DNA from: a virus
Strand: one strand, 5' to 3'
DNA: 33,110 bases
IMG/VR virus record: IMGVR_UViG_3300017917_002758
Location: 1-33,110 of that record
In this document: one piece after another, positions 5,307 to 19,255 of the stretch
Position numbering within the stretch: position 1 is the first letter of the stretch
Layout of the letters: every line of letters begins with the position of its first letter
Position numbers and translations under genes: made by a program
The notes under the pieces: model-generated
What the model was told of the DNA's origin: nothing
Databases searched by the model: none
Seen by the model: only the letters and a program-made list of their open reading frames with translations

Positions 5307-5316
5307 ATATTTATAT
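5307..5316 (+). promoter_or_regulatory. ATATTTATAT motif before the tail fibre
   Basis: Exact copy of the recurrent 10-mer followed by TAAA, 41 nt before the tail-fibre ATG at 5358. Putative late promoter by recurrence. Confidence 0.5.
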
Positions 5317-5357: not shown

Positions 5358-8300
5358 ATGGCTAATGAATTTGTAACTCGCAATGGTCTGTTATCACTAG
5401 ATAACAGCGTAATTTCAGGATCATTAATTGTAACTAATGGTATAACAGGTTCCCTACTCGGAACCTCATCTATATCGGTTAATGCCCTTACTGCATCTTC
5501 CGCAGATAATCTTACCGTCAGAGGTACTCTTACAGCCCAAACCATTGTAGCACAAACCATTACCTCTAGTATTTTATATTCTAGTGGTAGCAATATATTT
5601 GGCAATAGCTTAACTAATACCCAGTCAATGACTGGATCTGTTAGTATTACAGGTAGCCTAACAGTAAATGGCAGCTCAGCTGTGCTAAGCAACCAAACAT
5701 CATCAACGATGTTTGTACAAGGCGGTAATAGTTTTGGATCACAAGCGTTATTAGGTACAAACGATACACAAAATTTAGCATTTGAAACTAGTGGATCCGT
5801 TAGAATGTTTGTTAGTTCTAGTGGTCTTGTTGGCATAGGTACTACATCACCAGTAAGAATTTTTACAATAAATGGAGGATCATCCCCCTCAAGAGTACTA
5901 TTACAAAATACTAATAGTGGATTTACTATTGGAAATGGATTTGATATTATTCTAGATAATTCTGGTAATACTCAAGTATGGAACTATCAGAATGGAGTAA
6001 TGCAATTTGCTACTAATAATACCGAACGTTTAAGAATAACAAGCGGTGGAGATGTAGGGATTGGTACCTCCTCTCCATTTGGAACATCATCTAATAGAAC
6101 TGTACTTTCTGTTAATGGAACAACAGATGTTTCATTAAATGTAGGTTCAGGTGGTACTCAAAGAGCATACTTATATGGCTCATCAACATATGCTGAATTA
6201 GGAACTATTGGAAGTTTACCTTTAACTTTTGCTCCTAATAACACTGAGCGTATGAGAATAACAAGCGGTGGGGATGTTGGTATAGGTACGACTTCGCCAG
6301 GCAGAACTTTGCATGTACTAGGTCAAACTGGAATTGGAACTGTTTTAAAATTAGAAGGTGCATCAGGAACAACTACATATTTACAATTAGCTTATAATGG
6401 TGCAACAAATGCCCAAAGTGGTTATATTGGTTACAATAACAGTAGCCAAATGCAGTTCTTTACAAATGATACTCTTAGAGCAACAATAGACGCCTCCGGC
6501 AATCTCGGCTTAGGCGTTACTCCGAGTGCGTGGTTAAATACATTGAATGCTTTACAAATAGGTGCTGCACATTTATTTGGTCAAACAACAGGAACAGGAA
6601 CAGTATCACTTGGTAATAATGTTTTTTTAAATAGCACACCTGCTTACATTTATCAATACAATGGTAAAGCAACGAGATATTCTCAATATGATGGGCAACA
6701 CGAGTTTTACACCGCCCCATCCGGCACAGCTGGAAACGCTATCACGTTCACTCAGGCAATGACGCTTAACGCTAGTGGAAATTTGGCAATTAATGATACA
6801 ACTACTACATCTGCATCAGGCTATAATTGGATTAGAATAAATGGATCAACTGGCGGTGTTTTAGAGCTTACAAGTGCATCATCTAGAGTAGTTCAACTAC
6901 AATCCAATGGCACAAGTGCGGGAGGGGTGCTACAAACTGTTACCGATTCTCCATTAGCATTTGGTACAAATGGTAGTGAGAAAATGCGGATCACCTCCGC
7001 TGGTAATGTTGGTATAGGTACTACATCACCAGGCCAACTTCTTCAAGTTCATGGTGGAAGTTTATTAGTAAACACTGGTACATCCGCTACTGCTTATCGT
7101 GATATAATGATGGGTGGTATTGGAGGATGGGCTACAGGAGAATCTCATGGTATAGATACTGTATATGGTGGTTCTGCTTCACCTACAACATTTACTAGAA
7201 TAGAAAGTTATTTTGACGGCTCATCAGCTAGTATGTACTTTAGAAATTTCTTTAATTCAAGTTCGCCTCAAACTAGCATTTTAATGACTATTAGAGGTAG
7301 TGGTAATGTTGGTATAGGCGTCACATCACCACAAGCTCCCCTCCATGTTATAGCGGCAAACAGTAGTAATGATGCTTTAATTCAAGAATGGAGTTATACG
7401 GCAGGTACAACTGATGTTTATAGTTTAATGCTAAAACAAACAGTTACTGCTAACGTTGTACGTTACAACTTTTCAATGGTTAATAACAGCACAGCATATA
7501 ATGATGTGTTGGTATTGGATAGAGGTAATGTTGGTATAGGTACTACATCCCCAGGAGAAAAATTACATGTTGTTGGAAAAGTAAGAATATTTGATGCTGG
7601 TTATCCATATATAGACTTAGGTATAAACACATCTAACTACTGGAGAATTATAAATGATAATCCAAGTGATACTTTTGTTATTGGTAAAAATGGTACAACA
7701 CAATTTACAATAACAAGTGGAGGTAATGTTGGTATAGGTACTACATCACCATCAGCTAGATTATTTGTATCTGGTTCAACTAATGTAGTTGGAGTTCAAG
7801 GATCAGGCAGTGCAGCCCCGTTAATGTTTGTTGATGGAGCAAACGGCCGCTTGTTTGAAGTAACAGATGATCTATCCAATTCTCTATTCTCAGTTAATAC
7901 AATAGCTGGTTTACCTGTTATTGAAGCATTTGCTAACAATTGTGTTAGTATGGGTCAATTTGGTGGACATAAATTTGAGGTAACTTGTACATCAATTAGA
8001 GGAGGTAAGTGTACATCCGCTAGTGGATATCTCACTTTTGTTGGGGGAGGTAAATGTAATACAGCATCAGGATATTATTCTTTTATAGGAGGAGGAGGTA
8101 ATAATTGCGCTACAGGTACTCGCTCATTTATAGGAGGAGGATATAATAACACAACTAGTGGAATTTATTATTATTCAACCATTGTTAATGGTGAAGGAAA
8201 CTGTTCTACAGGAGCAGCTTCTTTTATAGGAGCTGGTGTTTTAAACACAGCATCAAGTAACTGTTCTGCAATTGTAGGTGGGGCTTGCAACCAAGCAACA

Positions 8301-8984
8301 TGTAATTTTAGCACAGTAGGAGGTGGTTCAGGCAATTGTGCAACAAATTTCTTTTCTACTGTAGGAGGAGGATGCACCAATAGAGCTCAGGGAACCCGCT
8401 CTACTATAAGTGGTGGTGATAACAATATAGCATCAGGGCAATATTCATTCGTTGGAGGTGGATTTATTAATACAGCTTCAGGGTATATGTCTTCAGTTTT
8501 AGGAGGTAGAAATAATAATATTAATGGATATACTAACTCTCATATAGTAGGATCTTGTATTGGAGCATCTGCTGATAACTACACTTATGTAAATAATCTT
8601 TGCCAAACAGGTGGCGGTATATCTGATTGTCGTGTTAAAAATACTATTCAACCACTTGAATTTGGTTTAGATCATATTACAAAATTACAACCAGTTAGTT
8701 TTTGTTGGAATGGTGATGTTTCTTGCCATAAAAAATATGGATTTATAGCACAAAATGTACAACAAGCTATGTCTTGTGTTGTTACATGCAACCCCCTCCA
8801 TAAACTATCTCCATTTGGTACCCAAGAGGTTGGTGGTGTTGGTGAATCACTTCTTGAATTTGAAAAAGATGCTGTGTACGCCTCATATGTAAATGCATTC
8901 AAGGATTTGAAAGCAGAAAACGATGCTTTAAAACAGCGTATAGATATTATAGAAAATATATTAAAACAAAACGGATTACTATAA
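5358..8984 (+). CDS. Long tail fibre with S74 auto-cleaving chaperone
   Basis: 1208-residue fibre. Residues about 1-860 carry recurrent fibre phrases (GNVGIGTTSPG..LHV, TERMRITSGG). Residues about 862-1080 form a YadA-head-like array of GGG..N.ASG.YS repeats. The C-terminus from Ser1089 (SDCRVKNTIQPLEFG, then KYGFIAQNVQQ) is the peptidase_S74 intramolecular chaperone, followed by a closing coiled coil. In this family the chaperone trimerises the fibre and is cut off just before the SD.R.K motif. All 18 cysteines lie after residue 860. A patch at 6490-6785 differs in base composition and looks imported. Host recognition is the likely role. Confidence 0.88.
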   Translation: MANEFVTRNGLLSLDNSVISGSLIVTNGITGSLLGTSSISVNALTASSADNLTVRGTLTAQTIVAQTITSSILYSSGSNIFGNSLTNTQSMTGSVSITGSLTVNGSSAVLSNQTSSTMFVQGGNSFGSQALLGTNDTQNLAFETSGSVRMFVSSSGLVGIGTTSPVRIFTINGGSSPSRVLLQNTNSGFTIGNGFDIILDNSGNTQVWNYQNGVMQFATNNTERLRITSGGDVGIGTSSPFGTSSNRTVLSVNGTTDVSLNVGSGGTQRAYLYGSSTYAELGTIGSLPLTFAPNNTERMRITSGGDVGIGTTSPGRTLHVLGQTGIGTVLKLEGASGTTTYLQLAYNGATNAQSGYIGYNNSSQMQFFTNDTLRATIDASGNLGLGVTPSAWLNTLNALQIGAAHLFGQTTGTGTVSLGNNVFLNSTPAYIYQYNGKATRYSQYDGQHEFYTAPSGTAGNAITFTQAMTLNASGNLAINDTTTTSASGYNWIRINGSTGGVLELTSASSRVVQLQSNGTSAGGVLQTVTDSPLAFGTNGSEKMRITSAGNVGIGTTSPGQLLQVHGGSLLVNTGTSATAYRDIMMGGIGGWATGESHGIDTVYGGSASPTTFTRIESYFDGSSASMYFRNFFNSSSPQTSILMTIRGSGNVGIGVTSPQAPLHVIAANSSNDALIQEWSYTAGTTDVYSLMLKQTVTANVVRYNFSMVNNSTAYNDVLVLDRGNVGIGTTSPGEKLHVVGKVRIFDAGYPYIDLGINTSNYWRIINDNPSDTFVIGKNGTTQFTITSGGNVGIGTTSPSARLFVSGSTNVVGVQGSGSAAPLMFVDGANGRLFEVTDDLSNSLFSVNTIAGLPVIEAFANNCVSMGQFGGHKFEVTCTSIRGGKCTSASGYLTFVGGGKCNTASGYYSFIGGGGNNCATGTRSFIGGGYNNTTSGIYYYSTIVNGEGNCSTGAASFIGAGVLNTASSNCSAIVGGACNQATCNFSTVGGGSGNCATNFFSTVGGGCTNRAQGTRSTISGGDNNIASGQYSFVGGGFINTASGYMSSVLGGRNNNINGYTNSHIVGSCIGASADNYTYVNNLCQTGGGISDCRVKNTIQPLEFGLDHITKLQPVSFCWNGDVSCHKKYGFIAQNVQQAMSCVVTCNPLHKLSPFGTQEVGGVGESLLEFEKDAVYASYVNAFKDLKAENDALKQRIDIIENILKQNGLL

Positions 8985-9024: not shown

Positions 9025-9363
9025 ATGATTTTTGGAAAAATTGATCCTATAGCTTCTGTAATCCAACAGACTAGCCCATTCCAAACAACAACTATTACTG
9101 GTTCTTACATGACAGCTATTGCTCGTCCTTATGTATTAGGTACTAATGAAGTTAACTTCCAAGTTATATATGGAAACGTAATATTTAATGAAAGTGGTAG
9201 CGTAACCAACTTCCAGCAGATATTCAGTGATAATGTATTATTAACAGGAAGTGCTATTTCAACTTGGGGTGAAGATGACTCAGTTATCTTAAACGCTATT
9301 GCTACTCAACAAGGAACTACAGTAATAGAAGTAGTATCTGGAAGTAATGGAATGTTTTATTAA
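9025..9363 (+). CDS. Small tail-fibre-associated hypothetical protein
   Basis: 112-residue protein with Thr/Ser-rich beta-like sequence (TTTITGSYMTA, VNFQVIYGNVIF, VLLTGSAISTWGEDD). No signal peptide or catalytic motif. Its TGS phrases resemble those of the 138-residue protein before the fibre, suggesting a related structural or fibre-attachment role. It stands 40 nt after the fibre gene behind a weak ATTTATTAAT element, and 42 nt before the glycan cassette. Function unknown. Confidence 0.6.
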   Translation: MIFGKIDPIASVIQQTSPFQTTTITGSYMTAIARPYVLGTNEVNFQVIYGNVIFNESGSVTNFQQIFSDNVLLTGSAISTWGEDDSVILNAIATQQGTTVIEVVSGSNGMFY

Positions 9364-9405: not shown

Positions 9406-10278
9406 ATGAATATTATATTTCAAATTAACGGTGGTATTGGCAAATGTGTGATGGCCACGGCTGTATGTGAAGCGATTAAAAAGAAGTATCCTAAATCCAA
9501 TCTAATAGTAGTATCGGGTTATGCCGATGTATTTTTGAATAATCCCTATGTTTATAGATCCTATCAATATGGGGGTATCTCTTATTTTTATGATGAATGG
9601 ATTGATGGAAAAGAATTTAAGATATTTGCTCACGATCCATATTTAGAAACCTCTCATATCAAACAAGAAGAACACCTTATTGAAACGTGGTGTAAAATGT
9701 TTGATATTCCTTATAATGGGGAGCAACCAAAAATCTATTTAACTGCTCGTGAAGAAAAATTCTTCTCTAATAAATTTTCCTCAGACCGTCCAATATTAGT
9801 ATTACAAACCAATGGTGGTGCTCAAACTGAGCACAAATATTCTTGGGCAAGAGATATTCCTTCATCTATAATTGTTAAAATAATTGATTATTTTAGATAT
9901 GACTATAATATAGCTCATATTAGAAGAGAGGATCAATTGTCGTTTGAAGGAACATTTACTGTAACTGATACTTTTAGAGCACTATGTGTTTTATTAGCAA
10001 TGAGTACTAAACGTTTGTTAATTGATAGTTTTGCACAACATGTAGCAGCATCTTTAAATATACCTTCAACAGTATGTTGGATTGCTAACAAACCAGAGGT
10101 ATTTGGTTACAAAATCCATGATAATATTTTATCAACCCCATTCACTACAAAACCAGAGCTAAGAAATAGCTATTTTAGTAAATTTAATATTGCTGGAGAT
10201 TTAATTGAATTTCCTTATAATAGTGAGGATGAAATATTTGATGTGGATAAAATAATAAAGTCTATAGAACAACAATGA
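9406..10278 (+). CDS. GT9-like (heptosyltransferase-type) glycosyltransferase
   Basis: 290-residue GT-B-fold protein resembling glycosyltransferase family 9. The N-terminus has the family's nucleotide-binding start (FQINGGIGKCVMATAVCEAI, then KYPKSNLIVVSG and NNPYVYRS). The C-terminal domain has LVLQTNGGAQ, and the donor-site segment 'RLLIDSFAQHVAASLNIPSTVCWI', equivalent to the D(S)..QH.A..L motif of GT9. It would move a sugar from a nucleotide donor onto a lipopolysaccharide-type or virion glycan acceptor; donor and acceptor cannot be told from sequence. It is the first gene of a seven-gene, almost gapless run ending at 13369. Confidence 0.75.
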   Translation: MNIIFQINGGIGKCVMATAVCEAIKKKYPKSNLIVVSGYADVFLNNPYVYRSYQYGGISYFYDEWIDGKEFKIFAHDPYLETSHIKQEEHLIETWCKMFDIPYNGEQPKIYLTAREEKFFSNKFSSDRPILVLQTNGGAQTEHKYSWARDIPSSIIVKIIDYFRYDYNIAHIRREDQLSFEGTFTVTDTFRALCVLLAMSTKRLLIDSFAQHVAASLNIPSTVCWIANKPEVFGYKIHDNILSTPFTTKPELRNSYFSKFNIAGDLIEFPYNSEDEIFDVDKIIKSIEQQ

Positions 10279-10901
10279 CAATAAATGAATGTTTTGATAA
10301 AGTATATTATCTTAATCTAGCTAAAGACACAGATCGAAATCAACATATTTTAGATCAATTTGCTAAATTTAATATTATCAATTTTGAAAGAATTGAAGGT
10401 ATAGTTTATGATTCTATACCTGATCCTTATTTATGGAGAAATTTTAATAAGGATAAACTTACTGAAAAATACATTATTGGATCTGTAGGTTGTAGAACTA
10501 CTCATATTAAAGCAATTAAGAAAGCAAAAGAAGATGGTCATAAGAAAGTTCTTATATTTGAAGACGATATAAAGTTTTTATCTAATCCTAATAATTTATT
10601 GCAACGAAATGAAATACAATTAAATAAAAATTGGGATATGCTTTATTTTGGTGGTATGATAGAACACCATTTTAGAGGTCAGATAGTAGGTGGGTATGCT
10701 TACGCAGTAAAAGAAACACTATTTGACGAAATAATTTATATGGCCGAGGCATCAGGTATGGAAATAGATAATTTCTATGCTAAAATAATCCACCATATGA
10801 GTTATAATTATAATGTTAGTGGAAGATATGATATTGGTATATTGCAACCGTTTAGAACAATAATAGTTGATGACTTCAAATCAAATATACAAAATGATTA
10901 G
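10275..10901 (+). CDS. GT25-like glycosyltransferase
   Basis: 208-residue protein resembling glycosyltransferase family 25 (LOS/LPS galactosyltransferases and collagen-type transferases). Diagnostic parts are 'KVYYLNLAKDTDRN' at the start, 'GSVGCRTTHIKAIKKA' in the middle, and the metal-binding 'FEDD' at residues 95-98, followed by 'WDMLYFGG'. The ATGA overlap with the preceding stop implies coupled translation. Likely adds a hexose to a surface glycan, together with its GT9-like neighbour. Family call is fairly secure; specificity is unknown. Confidence 0.8.
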   Translation: MTINECFDKVYYLNLAKDTDRNQHILDQFAKFNIINFERIEGIVYDSIPDPYLWRNFNKDKLTEKYIIGSVGCRTTHIKAIKKAKEDGHKKVLIFEDDIKFLSNPNNLLQRNEIQLNKNWDMLYFGGMIEHHFRGQIVGGYAYAVKETLFDEIIYMAEASGMEIDNFYAKIIHHMSYNYNVSGRYDIGILQPFRTIIVDDFKSNIQND

Positions 10902-11568
10902 TGAGTATATAAACTATATTATATCTAATACTAAATTAAATCCAAAAAATTTTCTTGAAATTGGATCTAGAGATGGAATAGATGCTCATAAAATATCTAA
11001 AAGGTTTGGTATATCTGCTAATAAAATATATTTAGTTGAACCTTATCCTTACCATATTGGTAAAATTAAAGATAATTTCCCTCAGTATCAATTATTTGAA
11101 TGTGGGATTTATCATCAAAAAGGAAAATTTAGATTTTACGGAATACACCTAGAAAACAAAGAACATTCAGGTGTAAGTTCGTTTTTAGATAGAAATGATG
11201 ATCTTTATCAACAAGCTAAAGACCTTAATGCTTTAGAAATTTTAGAATTAGAAACTATAACAGGTAAAGATTTATTAGATCAGATAGGAGAGGAAACAAT
11301 AGACTTATGTGATTTAGACGTAGAGGGAGTAACTTATGAAGTATTATTATCTTTTGAAAATGATATAAGCAAAATAAAAACATTACATTTTGAATGTGAA
11401 ACAACTCAGATATGGAAAGATCAACTTTTATATCAAGATATTAAACAATATTTAGAAAGTAAAAATTTTATAGAAGTACATAATAAACCTATATACCATA
11501 CCCAACTAGATTTAATTTATATAAATAAAACATATGGAGAAACTATTTCACCAATCATCAATGCCTAG
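10894..11568 (+). CDS. FkbM-family methyltransferase
   Basis: SAM-dependent methyltransferase of the FkbM type, commonly O-methylating sugars or lipid-linked glycans. The SAM-binding first strand and loop are 'NFLEIGSRDGIDAHKIS'; the second acidic strand is 'KIYLVEPYP'. 'HSGVSSFLDR' and 'DLCDLDVEGVTYEVLLSF' match the FkbM core (usually ..KIDVEG.E..VL.G). I chose ATG 10894, overlapping the previous stop as ATGATTAG; an in-frame ATG at 10870 or TTG at 10867 would add 8-9 residues with no recognisable content. Lies between glycosyltransferases and the sulfotransferase, suggesting one glycan is built, methylated and sulfated. Confidence 0.78.
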   Translation: MISEYINYIISNTKLNPKNFLEIGSRDGIDAHKISKRFGISANKIYLVEPYPYHIGKIKDNFPQYQLFECGIYHQKGKFRFYGIHLENKEHSGVSSFLDRNDDLYQQAKDLNALEILELETITGKDLLDQIGEETIDLCDLDVEGVTYEVLLSFENDISKIKTLHFECETTQIWKDQLLYQDIKQYLESKNFIEVHNKPIYHTQLDLIYINKTYGETISPIINA

Positions 11569-12352
11569 AGCAGGTAGCACATTACTACAAAATATACTAG
11601 CACAAAACCCAGACATATACGCTACACCAACATCAGGTGTATTAGAATTGATATTTGCTGCTAGAGGTAATTATACTGATTCATCAGAATTTAAAGCACA
11701 GGATCCTGAATTAATGCGAACAGCATTTTTGTCTTTTTGTACTAGTGGAATGAAAGCATATTATGAATCAATTACTAATAAAAAATATGTAGTAGATAAA
11801 TCTAGGGGATGGGGTATTCATTATGATTTTTTAAATCTACTAAACCCGCAACCTAAAATTATTTGTATGGTAAGAGATCTTAGAGACATATTCGCCTCTA
11901 TGGAAAAAAATTACCGCAAAACACCAGAAAAACAAGATCCAATTTTAAATTGGGCAACTATGCAAGGAACATCAGTACCAAAACGTATTGATATTTGGGC
12001 TCAAAACCCCCCAGTAGGAATGGCAATTGAACGTTTATCTGAAATCCATAGAATGGGGATTGATAAACATATATTGTTTGTTAAATTTGAGGATTTATGT
12101 TTATATCCTGAACAACAAATGAAACGAATATACAACTATTTAGGTATTCCTTATTTTGAACATGATTTCGATAACATTGAACAAGTAACAAAAGAAGATG
12201 ATGAAGTATATGGGGCGTTTGGTGATCATGTCATCAGAAAAAAACTAGAACCAGTACCATCAAAAGCAAATATATTATTAGGCAGAGATGTAACTGATTG
12301 GATTTATAACACATATAAATGGTATTTTGATCAATTTGGGTATAAAAAATAA
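11534..12352 (+). CDS. PAPS-dependent sulfotransferase
   Basis: 272-residue sulfotransferase. Residues 8-17 (SSMPRAGSTLL) are the P-loop-like 5'-phosphosulfate site, and 'ICMVRDLRDIFASM' around Arg114 is the 3'-phosphate-binding segment of the PAPS sulfotransferase superfamily. 'ILFVKFEDLCLYPEQQM' and 'RIYNYLGIPYFE' are the usual C-terminal elements. ATG 11534 overlaps the methyltransferase by 35 nt; the next ATG (11561) would cut the cofactor loop, so 11534 is preferred. It would transfer sulfate from PAPS to a hydroxyl, most likely on a carbohydrate given the neighbours, but protein tyrosine cannot be excluded. The APS-kinase-like gene follows 3 nt later. Confidence 0.85.
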   Translation: MEKLFHQSSMPRAGSTLLQNILAQNPDIYATPTSGVLELIFAARGNYTDSSEFKAQDPELMRTAFLSFCTSGMKAYYESITNKKYVVDKSRGWGIHYDFLNLLNPQPKIICMVRDLRDIFASMEKNYRKTPEKQDPILNWATMQGTSVPKRIDIWAQNPPVGMAIERLSEIHRMGIDKHILFVKFEDLCLYPEQQMKRIYNYLGIPYFEHDFDNIEQVTKEDDEVYGAFGDHVIRKKLEPVPSKANILLGRDVTDWIYNTYKWYFDQFGYKK

Positions 12353-12355
12353 TTT

Positions 12356-12787
12356 ATGATTATAGCTTTATTCGGTCAACCACATTGCGGCAAATCAACA
12401 TTAGCTAAGGAATTAGAAGGACACAATATTGATGGCGATAAACTAAGAGAAATATTCCAAAATAAAAATTTTACTCGTGAGGGCCGCATCCAGAATCTTA
12501 ATAGAGCAAGTGATATAGCTCATTATCTTAACAGTAATAACACTAATATTGTGCTATCCTTAGTTTATCCATATAAAGAGGCGAGAGAATATCTTAATAG
12601 TTTAACTGATCAAGTGGCTTGGGTATATCTAACATATGAGGGTGAAAGAGGAAGAGAAAAATTCCACGTACAAGACTTTGAAACACCAGATCAAGAGCAT
12701 ATATTACATTTAGATACATCTAAATTAACAATAGAGGAATGTATTAATAAAATTAAAAACTATGTGGGAGAAAAAAGTACACGTTAA
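12356..12787 (+). CDS. APS-kinase-like P-loop kinase
   Basis: 143-residue kinase resembling adenylylsulfate kinase (CysC), which makes the sulfate donor PAPS from APS and ATP. Visible are the Walker A loop GQPHCGKST (7-15), the substrate-binding DGD at 26-28 followed by KLR, 'EGRIQNLNRASDIAHYL' matching the family's R..N.RR..E.A..L helix, and 'VLSLVYPYKEAREYL' matching its S.I.PY...R. It is shorter than typical CysC (about 180-200 residues), and the usual lid (KGLYKKAR-like) is replaced by a short 'GREKFHVQDFETPDQEH'. Its place directly after the sulfotransferase strongly suggests PAPS supply; another small-molecule kinase activity remains possible. Confidence 0.72.
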   Translation: MIIALFGQPHCGKSTLAKELEGHNIDGDKLREIFQNKNFTREGRIQNLNRASDIAHYLNSNNTNIVLSLVYPYKEAREYLNSLTDQVAWVYLTYEGERGREKFHVQDFETPDQEHILHLDTSKLTIEECINKIKNYVGEKSTR

Positions 12788-13160
12788 ATCATCATTGCCT
12801 AAAAAAGATGACCAATGGTCTTTATTTATAGGTCGTTGGCAACCTTTACATGAAGGACATAAACAATTGTTTAGACAAGTAATAAATGAAGGTGGTAAAG
12901 TGTGTGTTGCCATTAGAGAGGTAGAACCAGATGAGAAAAACCCATTTACCCCTCATCAAATTATGCTCAATATATTTGAGCAAATGAAACCTGAGGTAGA
13001 ATCAGGCAAATTAAAAGTTATAACTATTCCTGATATCTGCTCAGTTGAATTTGGACGTGGAGTTGGATATGATATTATAGAACATATTCCACCACAAGAG
13101 GTAGCTGATATATCAGCAACTAAAATACGTGAGCAAATGAAAGCAGAAGGTAAACTATGA
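12762..13160 (+). CDS. HxGH nucleotidyltransferase (cytidylyltransferase-like)
   Basis: 132-residue member of the HxGH nucleotidyltransferase superfamily. 'FIGRWQPLHEGHKQLF' holds the HEGH motif (30-33); 'ISATKIRE' near residue 118 is the second conserved motif. Relatives attach AMP or CMP to phosphorylated substrates (NMN, phosphopantetheine, glycerol-3-phosphate), and ATP sulfurylase shares the fold. The ATG at 12762 overlaps the kinase gene by 26 nt. Possible roles are activating a sugar or alcohol phosphate for the nearby glycosyltransferases, NAD synthesis (NadM-like), or an unconventional step in sulfate activation. The motifs favour the NadM/cytidylyltransferase branch; the substrate is open. 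Confidence 0.75.
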   Translation: MWEKKVHVKSSLPKKDDQWSLFIGRWQPLHEGHKQLFRQVINEGGKVCVAIREVEPDEKNPFTPHQIMLNIFEQMKPEVESGKLKVITIPDICSVEFGRGVGYDIIEHIPPQEVADISATKIREQMKAEGKL

Positions 13161-13369
13161 TAGTAACTAAAAAACGACATATTGCTAAAACAATCAGTTA
13201 TCGCGTTATTAGTACCCTTATTGGATTTGCTATTATGTGGGCTGTTAGTGGATCTATTAAAGTAGGAGCTGCGTTTGGTGTTGCTGAATTGGTATATAAA
13301 CCTTTACAATACTATATTCATGAACGGGTATGGTATCGTTACATAAAATATGGTTTAAAGAAAGATTAG
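13157..13369 (+). CDS. DUF2061 small membrane protein
   Basis: 70-residue membrane protein matching DUF2061 as I know it: 'RHIAKTISYRVISTLIGFAIMWAVSG', then 'IKVGAAFGVAELVYKPLQYYIHERVWYR'. There are two hydrophobic segments, about residues 15-32 and 36-52, and a basic C-terminus. The function of the family is unknown. The ATGA overlap with the nucleotidyltransferase makes it the last member of the glycan/sulfation run. A membrane anchor or transport-related partner for the cassette enzymes is a guess from context. Confidence 0.75.
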   Translation: MIVTKKRHIAKTISYRVISTLIGFAIMWAVSGSIKVGAAFGVAELVYKPLQYYIHERVWYRYIKYGLKKD

Positions 13370-13386: not shown

Positions 13387-13396
13387 ATATTTATAT
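13387..13396 (+). promoter_or_regulatory. ATATTTATAT motif
   Basis: Exact copy of the recurrent 10-mer, 20 nt before ATG 13417, followed by ACGAAAC. It marks a likely new transcription unit after the glycan cassette. Confidence 0.5.
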
Positions 13397-13416: not shown

Positions 13417-13692
13417 ATGTTAACAATCATTATTGCTTTAGTAATTGCAGCAGCGATTGCTTTTGTATTGACAAAAAAAGGTAAAATTAAAGACGAAAAC
13501 AACAATAACATTCCTGATGCTATTGAAAACGTAGCAGCTAAAGTAAAGGAAGAAGTTAAAGAAACTGTTGCTGACGTTAAAGAAGCAGCTAAAAAAGTTG
13601 TTGTAAAGAAAAAAGAACAAGCACCTAAAATGGAGGCTAAACCAAAGTCTAAAAAACCAGCTGCTAAAAAACCTGCTAAAAAAGACAAATAA
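13417..13692 (+). CDS. Membrane-anchored Lys/Ala-rich protein
   Basis: 91-residue protein with one N-terminal transmembrane segment (MLTIIIALVIAAAIAFVLT). A charged helical middle follows (VAAKVKEEVKETVADVKEAAKKV), then a Lys/Ala/Pro tail (KPAAKKPAKKDK) like that of histone-H1-type or nucleoid-binding proteins. It may tether the basic tail to the inner membrane or bind DNA or polyanions; neither is proven. YtxH-like stress proteins have a similar layout. It opens a small-gene group (13417-14667) before the tail sheath. Confidence 0.65.
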   Translation: MLTIIIALVIAAAIAFVLTKKGKIKDENNNNIPDAIENVAAKVKEEVKETVADVKEAAKKVVVKKKEQAPKMEAKPKSKKPAAKKPAKKDK

Positions 13693-14746: not shown

Positions 14747-16465
14747 ATGGCAGAAAAAATTTTATCTCCTGGTGTATTCCAAAATGAATCTGACCAATCA
14801 TTAGTTGAAAGAGGTATTCAAGGTACTGCGACAGCAATTGTTGGTCCAACTGTGTTGGGTCAACCATTCATTCCTACCTATGTTACTTCTTACAGTGAGT
14901 ACGTGTCAAAATTCGGAGAAACATTCAAAAGTGGCAGCTACTTTTATGAATATTTTACTTCATTAGCTGCTAGAGACTTTTTTGATAATGGTGGTCAAAC
15001 ATTATTAGTTACCAGAATTATTTCTGGAAGTACTAATGTAAGCACATATTCTAATGCTGCTGTTCCTGCTTCTGCATCTGGTGTAACATCTTTTACTCTT
15101 GAAACATTAGCTTGGGGTGATCAAATGAATAATACCTCAAGTATAACTGCTGGTGCTTTAGCTAGTGGTAGTGCAATTAATGTTCGTTGGGAAGTAACAC
15201 AAGTAAATACAGGTAGTGGTACATTTACTTTAGGTATTCGTCAAGGTAACGATAATACATCTCAGCCTAACTATTTAGAAACATGGCCTAACTTATCATT
15301 AGATCCATCATTACCAAACTTTATTTCTCGTGTAATTGGTGATTACAAACCAGTATACAAATTAGACTCAGATAATGTTCCATACATCGAAATTACTGGT
15401 TCTTATGCTAATGCTTCTCAGTACGTACGTATTAAATCTGTAACAGCACAACCAGATTCTATTGATAATAATGGTAACTTTAAAGTAACTCAATACAGTG
15501 GATCATTACCTCAAGTAGGAAGTGGTTCATATGGTGGTTCATTTGCTGGTGGTGTTGCAGCAACAAATGCTGTTCAATTGATGAATGAAAATATCACAAA
15601 TGCCAACATTCAAGGATTTGATTCAGCTTCTTATATTACTGCTTTCAATTTATTATCAAATAAAGATGAATTCCAGTTTAATGTATTATTAGCTCCTGGT
15701 ATTACTTTAAGTGGCAATGCAGCAAGTACAATGATTTCTCTTTGTGAGAATAGAGGTGATGCAATAGCAGTAATAGATACAACATTATATGGTAGTGCAA
15801 TATCTTCAGCTGCTGGCGCTGCTGCTGGTTCAACAAGCAACTACGCTGCAACTTATTGGCCTTGGGTTCAATTACAATCATTATCATTAGGTAAAGCAGT
15901 TTGGGCCCCAGCTTCTGTAGTAGTAGGTGGTGCTTATGCTTTTAACGACTCAGTTGGTGCTGAATGGTTTGCTCCTGCAGGTTTAAACCGTGGTGGTGTT
16001 CCTTCAGTATTACGTGTTGAAAGAAAATTAACTCAAAATGATCGTGATGTATTATATGAAGCAAATGTTAACCCAATAGCTACATTCCCTGGTGAAGGTG
16101 CTGTAATATTTGGTCAAAAGACATTACAGAAAAAACAAACATCCCTTGATCGCGTAAACGTTCGTCGTTTGTTGATTGCATTAAAAGACTTTATTGGTCA
16201 AGTTGCAAACAATTTAGTGTTCGAACAAAACACAGCTGTTACTCGTAATAGATTCTTATCTCAAGTTAACCCTTATTTAGAATCAATAGTACAACGTCAA
16301 GGTTTATTTGCTTACAGAGTAGTAATGGATGAATCAAACAATACTCCTGATGTAATCGATCGTAACCAATTAGTAGGTCAGATTTATATTCAACCAACTA
16401 AGACAGCTGAATTCATTATATTGAACTTCAACATATTACCAACTGGCGCTACATTCCCTGCATAA
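14747..16465 (+). CDS. 18: Tail sheath protein (T4 gp18-like)
   Basis: 572-residue contractile tail sheath subunit, somewhat shorter than T4 gp18 (659). The N-terminus has the sheath signature 'LSPGVFQNESDQS', 'GTATAIVGPTVLGQP' and 'FFDNGGQTLLVTRI'. The C-terminal domain, which forms the inter-subunit mesh, reads 'KDFIGQVANNLVFEQNT' and 'RNRFLSQVNPYLESIVQRQG', ending 'TAEFIILNFNILPTGA'. Sheath subunits polymerise around the tube and contract to drive it through the envelope. The middle (about 120-330) is the variable surface domain. The tube gene follows after 50 nt with the T4 order sheath-tube. Confidence 0.93.
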   Translation: MAEKILSPGVFQNESDQSLVERGIQGTATAIVGPTVLGQPFIPTYVTSYSEYVSKFGETFKSGSYFYEYFTSLAARDFFDNGGQTLLVTRIISGSTNVSTYSNAAVPASASGVTSFTLETLAWGDQMNNTSSITAGALASGSAINVRWEVTQVNTGSGTFTLGIRQGNDNTSQPNYLETWPNLSLDPSLPNFISRVIGDYKPVYKLDSDNVPYIEITGSYANASQYVRIKSVTAQPDSIDNNGNFKVTQYSGSLPQVGSGSYGGSFAGGVAATNAVQLMNENITNANIQGFDSASYITAFNLLSNKDEFQFNVLLAPGITLSGNAASTMISLCENRGDAIAVIDTTLYGSAISSAAGAAAGSTSNYAATYWPWVQLQSLSLGKAVWAPASVVVGGAYAFNDSVGAEWFAPAGLNRGGVPSVLRVERKLTQNDRDVLYEANVNPIATFPGEGAVIFGQKTLQKKQTSLDRVNVRRLLIALKDFIGQVANNLVFEQNTAVTRNRFLSQVNPYLESIVQRQGLFAYRVVMDESNNTPDVIDRNQLVGQIYIQPTKTAEFIILNFNILPTGATFPA

Positions 16466-18511: not shown

Positions 18512-19255
18512 ATGGCAGAATTAAAAATCCCAACGGAAATAGTTACGTTACCTTCAAAAGGTCTACTATACCCAGAAACATCACCACTATCTAAAGGTGA
18601 AATTGAAATGAAATACATGACAGCAAAGGAAGAAGATATTCTTACCAACGCTAATTTTATTCGTCAAGGTACTGTAATTGATAAATTATTACAAGCATTA
18701 ATTGTTACACCAATTGATTACAATGAATTGTTGATTGGTGATAAAAATGCAATATTAGTTGCTGCTCGTGTATTAGGCTACGGTAAAGATTATGCATTTC
18801 AATACAATAATAAAGAATATACTATTGATTTATCAACATTGGAAGATAAAGTAGTTGATACATCATTATATAAACGTGGTGTAAATGAATTTGCTTTTAC
18901 TTTACCACATTCAAGCAATAATGTTACATTCAAATTATTAACACACGGTGACGAACAGAAAATTGATGCTGAAATTAAAGGCTTACAAAAAGTAAATCCA
19001 AATGTAACTACAGATATTACTACTCGTTTAAAACACATGATCACCTCAGTTGAAGGTAAACGTGATGCTAAAGACATTCGTGATTTTGTAGACAACTATT
19101 TAATTGCTAAAGACGCAAGAGCATTGCGTGAATATTACAGCAAAATCCAACCAGATATTAATTTAGTCTACAAACCAGAAGACGAAAATTATGTAGGGGA
19201 GGGCATAGCAGTACCTATTTCTTTAAACTTTTTTTGGCCTGACGCAGGAATATAG
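18512..19255 (+). CDS. T4 gp26-like baseplate/tail assembly protein
   Basis: 247-residue protein of the T4 baseplate (gp26-type) family. The diagnostic start is 'IPTEIVTLPSKGLLYPETSPLSKGEIEMKYMTAKEEDILTN'-like, seen here at residues 5-46; 'YDELL'-type 'DYNELLIGDKNAILVAARVLGYG' follows, and a 'KLLTHGDEQKID' segment appears later. The zero frame ends 'SLNFFWPDAGI' at TAG 19253. A further conserved-looking ORF continues in the +1 frame across this stop, so a longer frameshift product is likely. It acts in baseplate hub or tail-tube assembly, and its place before the tape measure matches tail-assembly chaperones. Confidence 0.82.
   Translation: MAELKIPTEIVTLPSKGLLYPETSPLSKGEIEMKYMTAKEEDILTNANFIRQGTVIDKLLQALIVTPIDYNELLIGDKNAILVAARVLGYGKDYAFQYNNKEYTIDLSTLEDKVVDTSLYKRGVNEFAFTLPHSSNNVTFKLLTHGDEQKIDAEIKGLQKVNPNVTTDITTRLKHMITSVEGKRDAKDIRDFVDNYLIAKDARALREYYSKIQPDINLVYKPEDENYVGEGIAVPISLNFFWPDAGI

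Follow-up and report, generated by a model that had tools for sequence, protein, structure and literature searches.

Enzymes known to make 3'-phosphoadenosine 5'-phosphosulfate (PAPS), namely PAPS synthase, which combines an ATP sulfurylase with an adenosine 5'-phosphosulfate (APS) kinase, and the CysNC and CysDN-CysC systems, pair an APS kinase with a nucleotidyltransferase. Sulfotransferases of the Sulfotransfer_3 family are also found in cyanophages S-SKS1, S-SCSM1 and S-SRM01 and in OM43 phages; the function of phage sulfotransferases has been termed unclear (PMC10580990), or they have been described without a function (PMC8290583), and viral cysC, cysH and cysNC have been listed as unvalidated genes of assimilatory sulfate reduction (PMC12713726). 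In bacteria, the autotransporter heptosyltransferases TibC and AAH, GT-B enzymes resembling WaaC, glycosylate a repetitive adhesin (PMC4358343). Here we analyze the IMG/VR record IMGVR_UViG_3300017917_002758 (33,110 bases, contained complete in the stretch analyzed, hereafter the window), whose gene content is that of a contractile-tailed phage, and describe a cassette of seven genes (9406..13369, plus strand) that includes a sulfotransferase (ST), a short APS-kinase-type kinase and a small nucleotidyltransferase (NT). We propose, about evenly balanced between confidence and doubt, that the cassette serves the phage as a sulfation module in which NT, kinase and ST act as a chain, with the phage's own YadA-like fibre as the likely acceptor.

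The cassette resembles PAPS synthase and the Cys systems in that an APS-kinase homologue lies beside, or in some relatives is fused with, a nucleotidyltransferase near sulfotransferases, but its NT is an HxGH protein with no similarity to Sat (PF01747) or CysD and its kinase is shortened. The ST shares 27-30% identity with the cyanophage enzymes, whereas no member of the NT family was found in the three cyanophage and three single-cell virus records searched, and no kinase match in the flanks read. As with viral cysC, an APS kinase is carried in a viral genome; here, however, it sits with a sulfotransferase and a glycosyltransferase, which suggests sulfation rather than assimilation. As with TibC and AAH, a putative GT-B type enzyme accompanies a repetitive adhesin, but the present enzyme is phage-encoded, distantly GT9-like, paired with a sulfotransferase and of predicted activity. 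The same kinase-NT pair forms a single protein in phrog_10255, a kinase-cytidyltransferase fusion of Stenotrophomonas phage DLP_6 and Xanthomonas phage AhaSv, which differs in having no sulfotransferase annotated nearby and a kinase with SAR11-like substitutions. A literature search of incomplete coverage, and thus weak evidence of novelty, found no description of a phage sulfation cassette supplied with PAPS.

The seven open reading frames (ORFs) lie on a single strand at spacings of -35 to +3 nt, in the order and with the overlaps or short gaps reported by a first-pass annotation of the window: a GT9-like (heptosyltransferase-type) glycosyltransferase (9406..10278), a GT25-type glycosyltransferase (10275..10901; PF01755, 2.4e-12), an FkbM-family methyltransferase (10867..11568; PF05050, 1.6e-10, and TIGR01444 over its cut-off), the ST (11534..12352), the kinase (12356..12787), the NT (12762..13160) and a small DUF2061 membrane protein (13157..13369; PF09834, 3e-16, 60 bits against a cut-off of 23.1), which is syntenic with kinase-NT in phages. 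Six of that annotation's domain labels are borne out by Pfam matches over cut-off. The GT9 label comes from relatives rather than from the window protein, which has no Pfam match of its own: PF01075 is matched by 6 of the 27 GT9-family relatives (best 9e-5), a PDB profile search with the GT9 alignment gave no match, and single-sequence structure prediction of the window protein reached a predicted local distance difference test score (pLDDT) of 34. The ST has the Pfam match and motifs of a PAPS-dependent sulfotransferase (PF13469, 6.6e-20; PR.GST and R...S, present as the 5'-PSB-like PRAGST and the 3'-PB-like RDLRDIFAS), and its PAPS-site motif residues are conserved across 90 sequences.

To place the cassette among relatives, IMG/VR was scanned three times, with the kinase, the NT and the ST as queries, yielding 185 loci from which profiles were built. 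Loci were dereplicated for counting, and the ST-found set (n=42) was restricted to those with at least 4 kb downstream; because loci were retrieved through their own members, we read co-occurrence separately for each query. The core GT9-ST-kinase(-NT-DUF2061) recurs in about 100 dereplicated contigs. Of 121 dereplicated loci, 40 show the order GT9-ST-kinase-NT-DUF2061 and many others a permuted version; the recurrence of this order across dozens of dereplicated contigs rules out chance. The GT9-like gene adjoins the ST in most loci. GT25 and FkbM were detected in only 6 and 33 of 187 loci, respectively, which marks them as optional, variable insertions, so the earlier view of all seven genes as one cassette stands for the core and not for these two.

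The first-pass annotation had made its PAPS reading depend on kinase and sulfotransferase occurring together in relatives, and they do so in 38 of the 42 ST-found loci (L158 and L167 carry the kinase upstream of NT, in permuted order). Within this set gene loss is nested: NT is present in 32 loci and never without the kinase (0/42), whereas six loci have the kinase without NT, five of them minimal GT9-ST-kinase cassettes with tail genes next (L152, L154, L155, L161, L178). NT was absent from the rest of the record in nine whole records of ST-bearing phages that have no local NT; L148, also without a local NT, has one far off in the same record. Kinase and NT are fused into one protein in the Stenotrophomonas and Xanthomonas phages, and open frames of about 260-290 aa in SAR11 appear to be such fusions, so the pair is probably fused in some SAR11 as well. 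The occurrence of kinase without NT but not NT without kinase, together with the fusions, is the pattern expected if NT formed APS, the kinase formed PAPS and the sulfotransferase used it. From the opposite direction, this ST family is nearby in 30 of the 38 dereplicated loci found with the kinase or NT. Directly upstream of the core sulfotransferase, L148 also carries a second, distinct one (7410-7988; Sulfotransfer_4, PF17784, 8e-31).

Under the proposed mechanism, NT would use ATP and sulfate to form APS, which the short kinase would convert to PAPS; the ST would then move sulfate from PAPS to a sugar that the GT9-like enzyme has placed on the YadA-like tail fibre encoded just upstream, with GT25 and FkbM making optional sugar or methyl additions. 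The phage might gain adhesion, stability or shielding. In acting on the fibre, the GT9-like enzyme and ST would resemble TibC, which acts on autotransporters (PMC4358343).

The proposed target is a large tail fibre (5358..8984, plus strand) with a Peptidase_S74 chaperone end (PF13884, 8e-11), a UspA1_rep match (0.002) and a YadA/UspA1-like head-repeat block beginning at residue 896. Using this head-repeat block as the query and sheath-matched loci without GT9 or sulfotransferase as controls, we found a repeat fibre preceding 32 of 37 dereplicated GT9-first cassettes and 0 of 23 controls (Fisher p = 4e-12; kinship ignored); a regular-expression variant of the test gave 31/38 and 0/22. The commonest arrangement places the cassette directly behind the repeat fibre and ahead of the sheath, which in the window starts at 14747 (the baseplate hub starts at 18512). 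Since the GT9-ST pair usually follows a YadA-like repeat fibre, we consider the fibre the likeliest target; the first-pass annotation had left the choice between host envelope and the phage's own fibres undecided. Between fibre and cassette lies a small 112-aa protein (9025..9363, plus strand) with no Pfam or PHROG match, homologues of which immediately precede GT9 in 10 of 38 loci.

Many plus-strand genes in the window have the motif TATTTATA 11-50 nt ahead of them (305, 5308, 13388, 17062, 18481, 19520, 20152 and 22231); it is probably a promoter motif of this phage, opposite in reading to the T4 late motif TATAAATA. A possible late promoter of this kind precedes the fibre gene (5308..5315, plus strand) and another the gene after the cassette, which starts at 13417 (13388..13395, plus strand), while the motif scan found none between cassette genes, which fits transcription of the cassette with the fibre; by late read-through, the fibre's own TATTTATA might drive the cassette too. 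The earlier statement that no late motif interrupts the cassette and that one follows it is roughly right: one does follow, but an exact TATTTATA lies within NT at 12823, and TATAAATA occurs at 11520, 14 nt before the sulfotransferase gene begins. If the module instead sulfated or glycosylated the envelope of the infected host, for example to block other phages, a membrane protein such as DUF2061 would be in place, and phage glycosyltransferases that modify host surface glycans are well known. Some cassettes do lie apart from fibres (in the ST-GT9-kinase order, a repeat fibre is in view in 1 of 9 loci). The commonest position behind the repeat fibre and the lack of intergenic TATTTATA, consistent with late read-through, both speak for the virion, and we regard an envelope target as unlikely.

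By sequence, the kinase is homologous to APS kinases but shorter (PF01583, 2.1e-9; 38 bits against a gathering cut-off of 21.1), and its PDB matches are APS kinases. The P-loop, the DGD motif and the APS-site residues R31, F/Y39, R44 and N47, which we take to correspond to R66, F75, R80 and N83 of the Penicillium APS kinase, are kept in 98 of 98 viral kinases, and the APS-site residues are likewise invariant or F/Y in all 18 non-SAR11 cellular kinases.

The NT is a 132-aa HxGH protein that matches PF01467 (CTP_transf_like; 9e-7, 29.6 bits against a cut-off of 21) and had no match to PF01747 (Sat) in the Pfam search. Its HxGH and ISxT..R motif residues H30, H33, S118, T120 and R123 are invariant in 93 viral sequences, and the family-specific R99, G102 and Y103 are invariant across an alignment of these 93 with about 80 cellular sequences. 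Structure prediction gives an HxGH core resembling NadM and phosphopantetheine adenylyltransferase (PPAT), with about 80 columns aligned in the fold search; the protein is without the second, nicotinamide mononucleotide (NMN)-binding half of NMN adenylyltransferases. Scores against full-length NMN adenylyltransferase models were below cut-off (NF002243, 35 against 127 bits; TIGR01527, 28 against 181).

Scanning genomes with NT recovered cellular members in SAR11, Marinimicrobia, Marinoscillum, Flavobacteriales and one marine group III archaeon; in 68 of 80 loci a kinase immediately precedes NT. Among 36 NT-holding genomes, Sat was found in 2, CysD in 0, Sulfotransfer_3 in 28 and NadD in 33; in the 19 non-SAR11 genomes the counts were 2, 0, 16 and 16. 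NadD served as a completeness control; where it is present, no further NMN adenylyltransferase would be required. Within the phylum Marinimicrobia, NT-positive genomes had Sat in 0/7 and ST in 7/7, compared with 54/142 and 87/142 in NT-negative genomes, both contrasts being marginal (p ~0.05 each). The near absence of Sat and CysD where sulfotransferases are common and NadD is present makes NT a candidate new ATP sulfurylase, a functional analogue of Sat, rather than an NMN adenylyltransferase. This proposal draws on genomic complementarity, fold, conserved residues and the accompanying kinase, and gives the HxGH enzyme, to which the first-pass annotation had assigned no role, the look of the APS-forming step. 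We tentatively extend it, at rather less than even confidence, to a new family of minimal ATP sulfurylases whose sequences show no relationship to Sat or CysDN and which, with the short kinase, would form a two-gene PAPS synthase. Streamlined marine bacteria, an archaeon and large phages would share this synthase, the phages using it to sulfate their own adhesin-like tail fibres. In cellular neighbourhoods (gene names, sulfotransferases excepted, are our reading of the translations), two sulfotransferases follow kinase-NT in a Crocinitomicaceae metagenome-assembled genome (L276), the pair in a SAR11 locus (L304:11035-13364) has, downstream and nearby, apparent aprB and aprA genes for the beta and alpha subunits of APS reductase, and a gene read as metK precedes the pair in the archaeon (L293).

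The sulfation chemistry could also hold with NT doing something else: the host would give APS, the kinase would top up PAPS, and NT would perform a linked task such as activating another group. Phages with ST and kinase but no NT, and the NadM/PPAT-like fold, favor this, whereas pair-bearing genomes nearly all lack Sat and CysD yet hold sulfotransferases, and kinase and NT lie side by side or in one protein; we consider it unlikely. A very unlikely reading is that kinase and NT serve nicotinamide adenine dinucleotide (NAD) salvage as a ribosylnicotinamide kinase and an NMN adenylyltransferase, like NadR, and have nothing to do with sulfation. NMN adenylyltransferases are indeed the closest solved sequences and folds to NT, but the kinase matches APS kinases and keeps their site residues, NT is without the second half, and minimal cassettes couple the kinase with ST and no NT; as the main explanation NAD salvage was rejected because most genomes already have NadD. 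Least probable of all is that kinase and NT produce a different 3'-phosphonucleotide donor, the role of the APS-kinase-like Cj1415 in Campylobacter capsule phosphoramidate synthesis, with the "sulfotransferase" moving that group: APS-kinase homologues do act so in capsule clusters, and HAD-like ORFs occur near NT in 26 of 164 loci, but the transferase is clearly Sulfotransfer_3 with conserved PAPS-site motifs, the Campylobacter nucleotidyltransferase is of a different fold, and the loci read showed no obvious amidotransferase or glutamine kinase.

Several observations weigh against the sulfation module as we propose it. The NT core is NadM/PPAT-like, and yeast ATP sulfurylase is a weak structural match only. 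In its lid region the kinase lacks about 25 residues, its domain match ends near residue 90, and because the full lid is missing it falls below the NCBI APS-kinase equivalog TIGR00455 (36 against 138.7 bits). SAR11 kinases are altered at several checked positions (D26, G27, N47, S68, Y73), so that we count SAR11 as a divergent lineage whose substrate is uncertain and in which the pair may act on something else; the SAR11 association of NT with sulfotransferases vanishes when strong matches alone are counted, and we do not rely on it. The association of fibre and cassette is uncorrected for phage relatedness. Finally, the PAPS reading, which co-occurrence and the retained APS-site residues favor, is at odds with eight of the 38 kinase/NT-found loci, which have no nearby member of this ST family. 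One of them, L101, adjoins a Sulfotransfer_2 gene, the sole Pfam-confirmed other sulfotransferase among the eight, and candidate ORFs in three of these loci had no Pfam match. Sulfotransferase-like ORFs near the kinase-only loci L057, L059, L060 and L063 also had no Pfam match and were left uncounted.

The HAD-like phosphatase ORF (115 aa, DIDGT) lies between or beside kinase, NT and DUF2061 (L063:8396-8743, L101:7655-8008 and 24 further viral loci) and might be a recycler of 3'-phosphoadenosine 5'-phosphate. In L057, L060 and L063, upstream of the sheath, a carbamoyltransferase lies beside kinase-NT-DUF2061 with SGNH-hydrolase-like and epimerase-like ORFs and no GT9 or sulfotransferase, and the stretch between fibre and sheath appears to be a hypervariable site of surface modification.

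Sulfated glycans on virions were not found described in the literature searched, and phage sulfotransferases, repeatedly reported without a function, may here gain a testable job in making them. If NT does make APS, it would fill a gap in abundant ocean bacteria that have sulfotransferases and no recognised ATP sulfurylase, and would correct the reading of viral cysC as a gene of sulfate assimilation.

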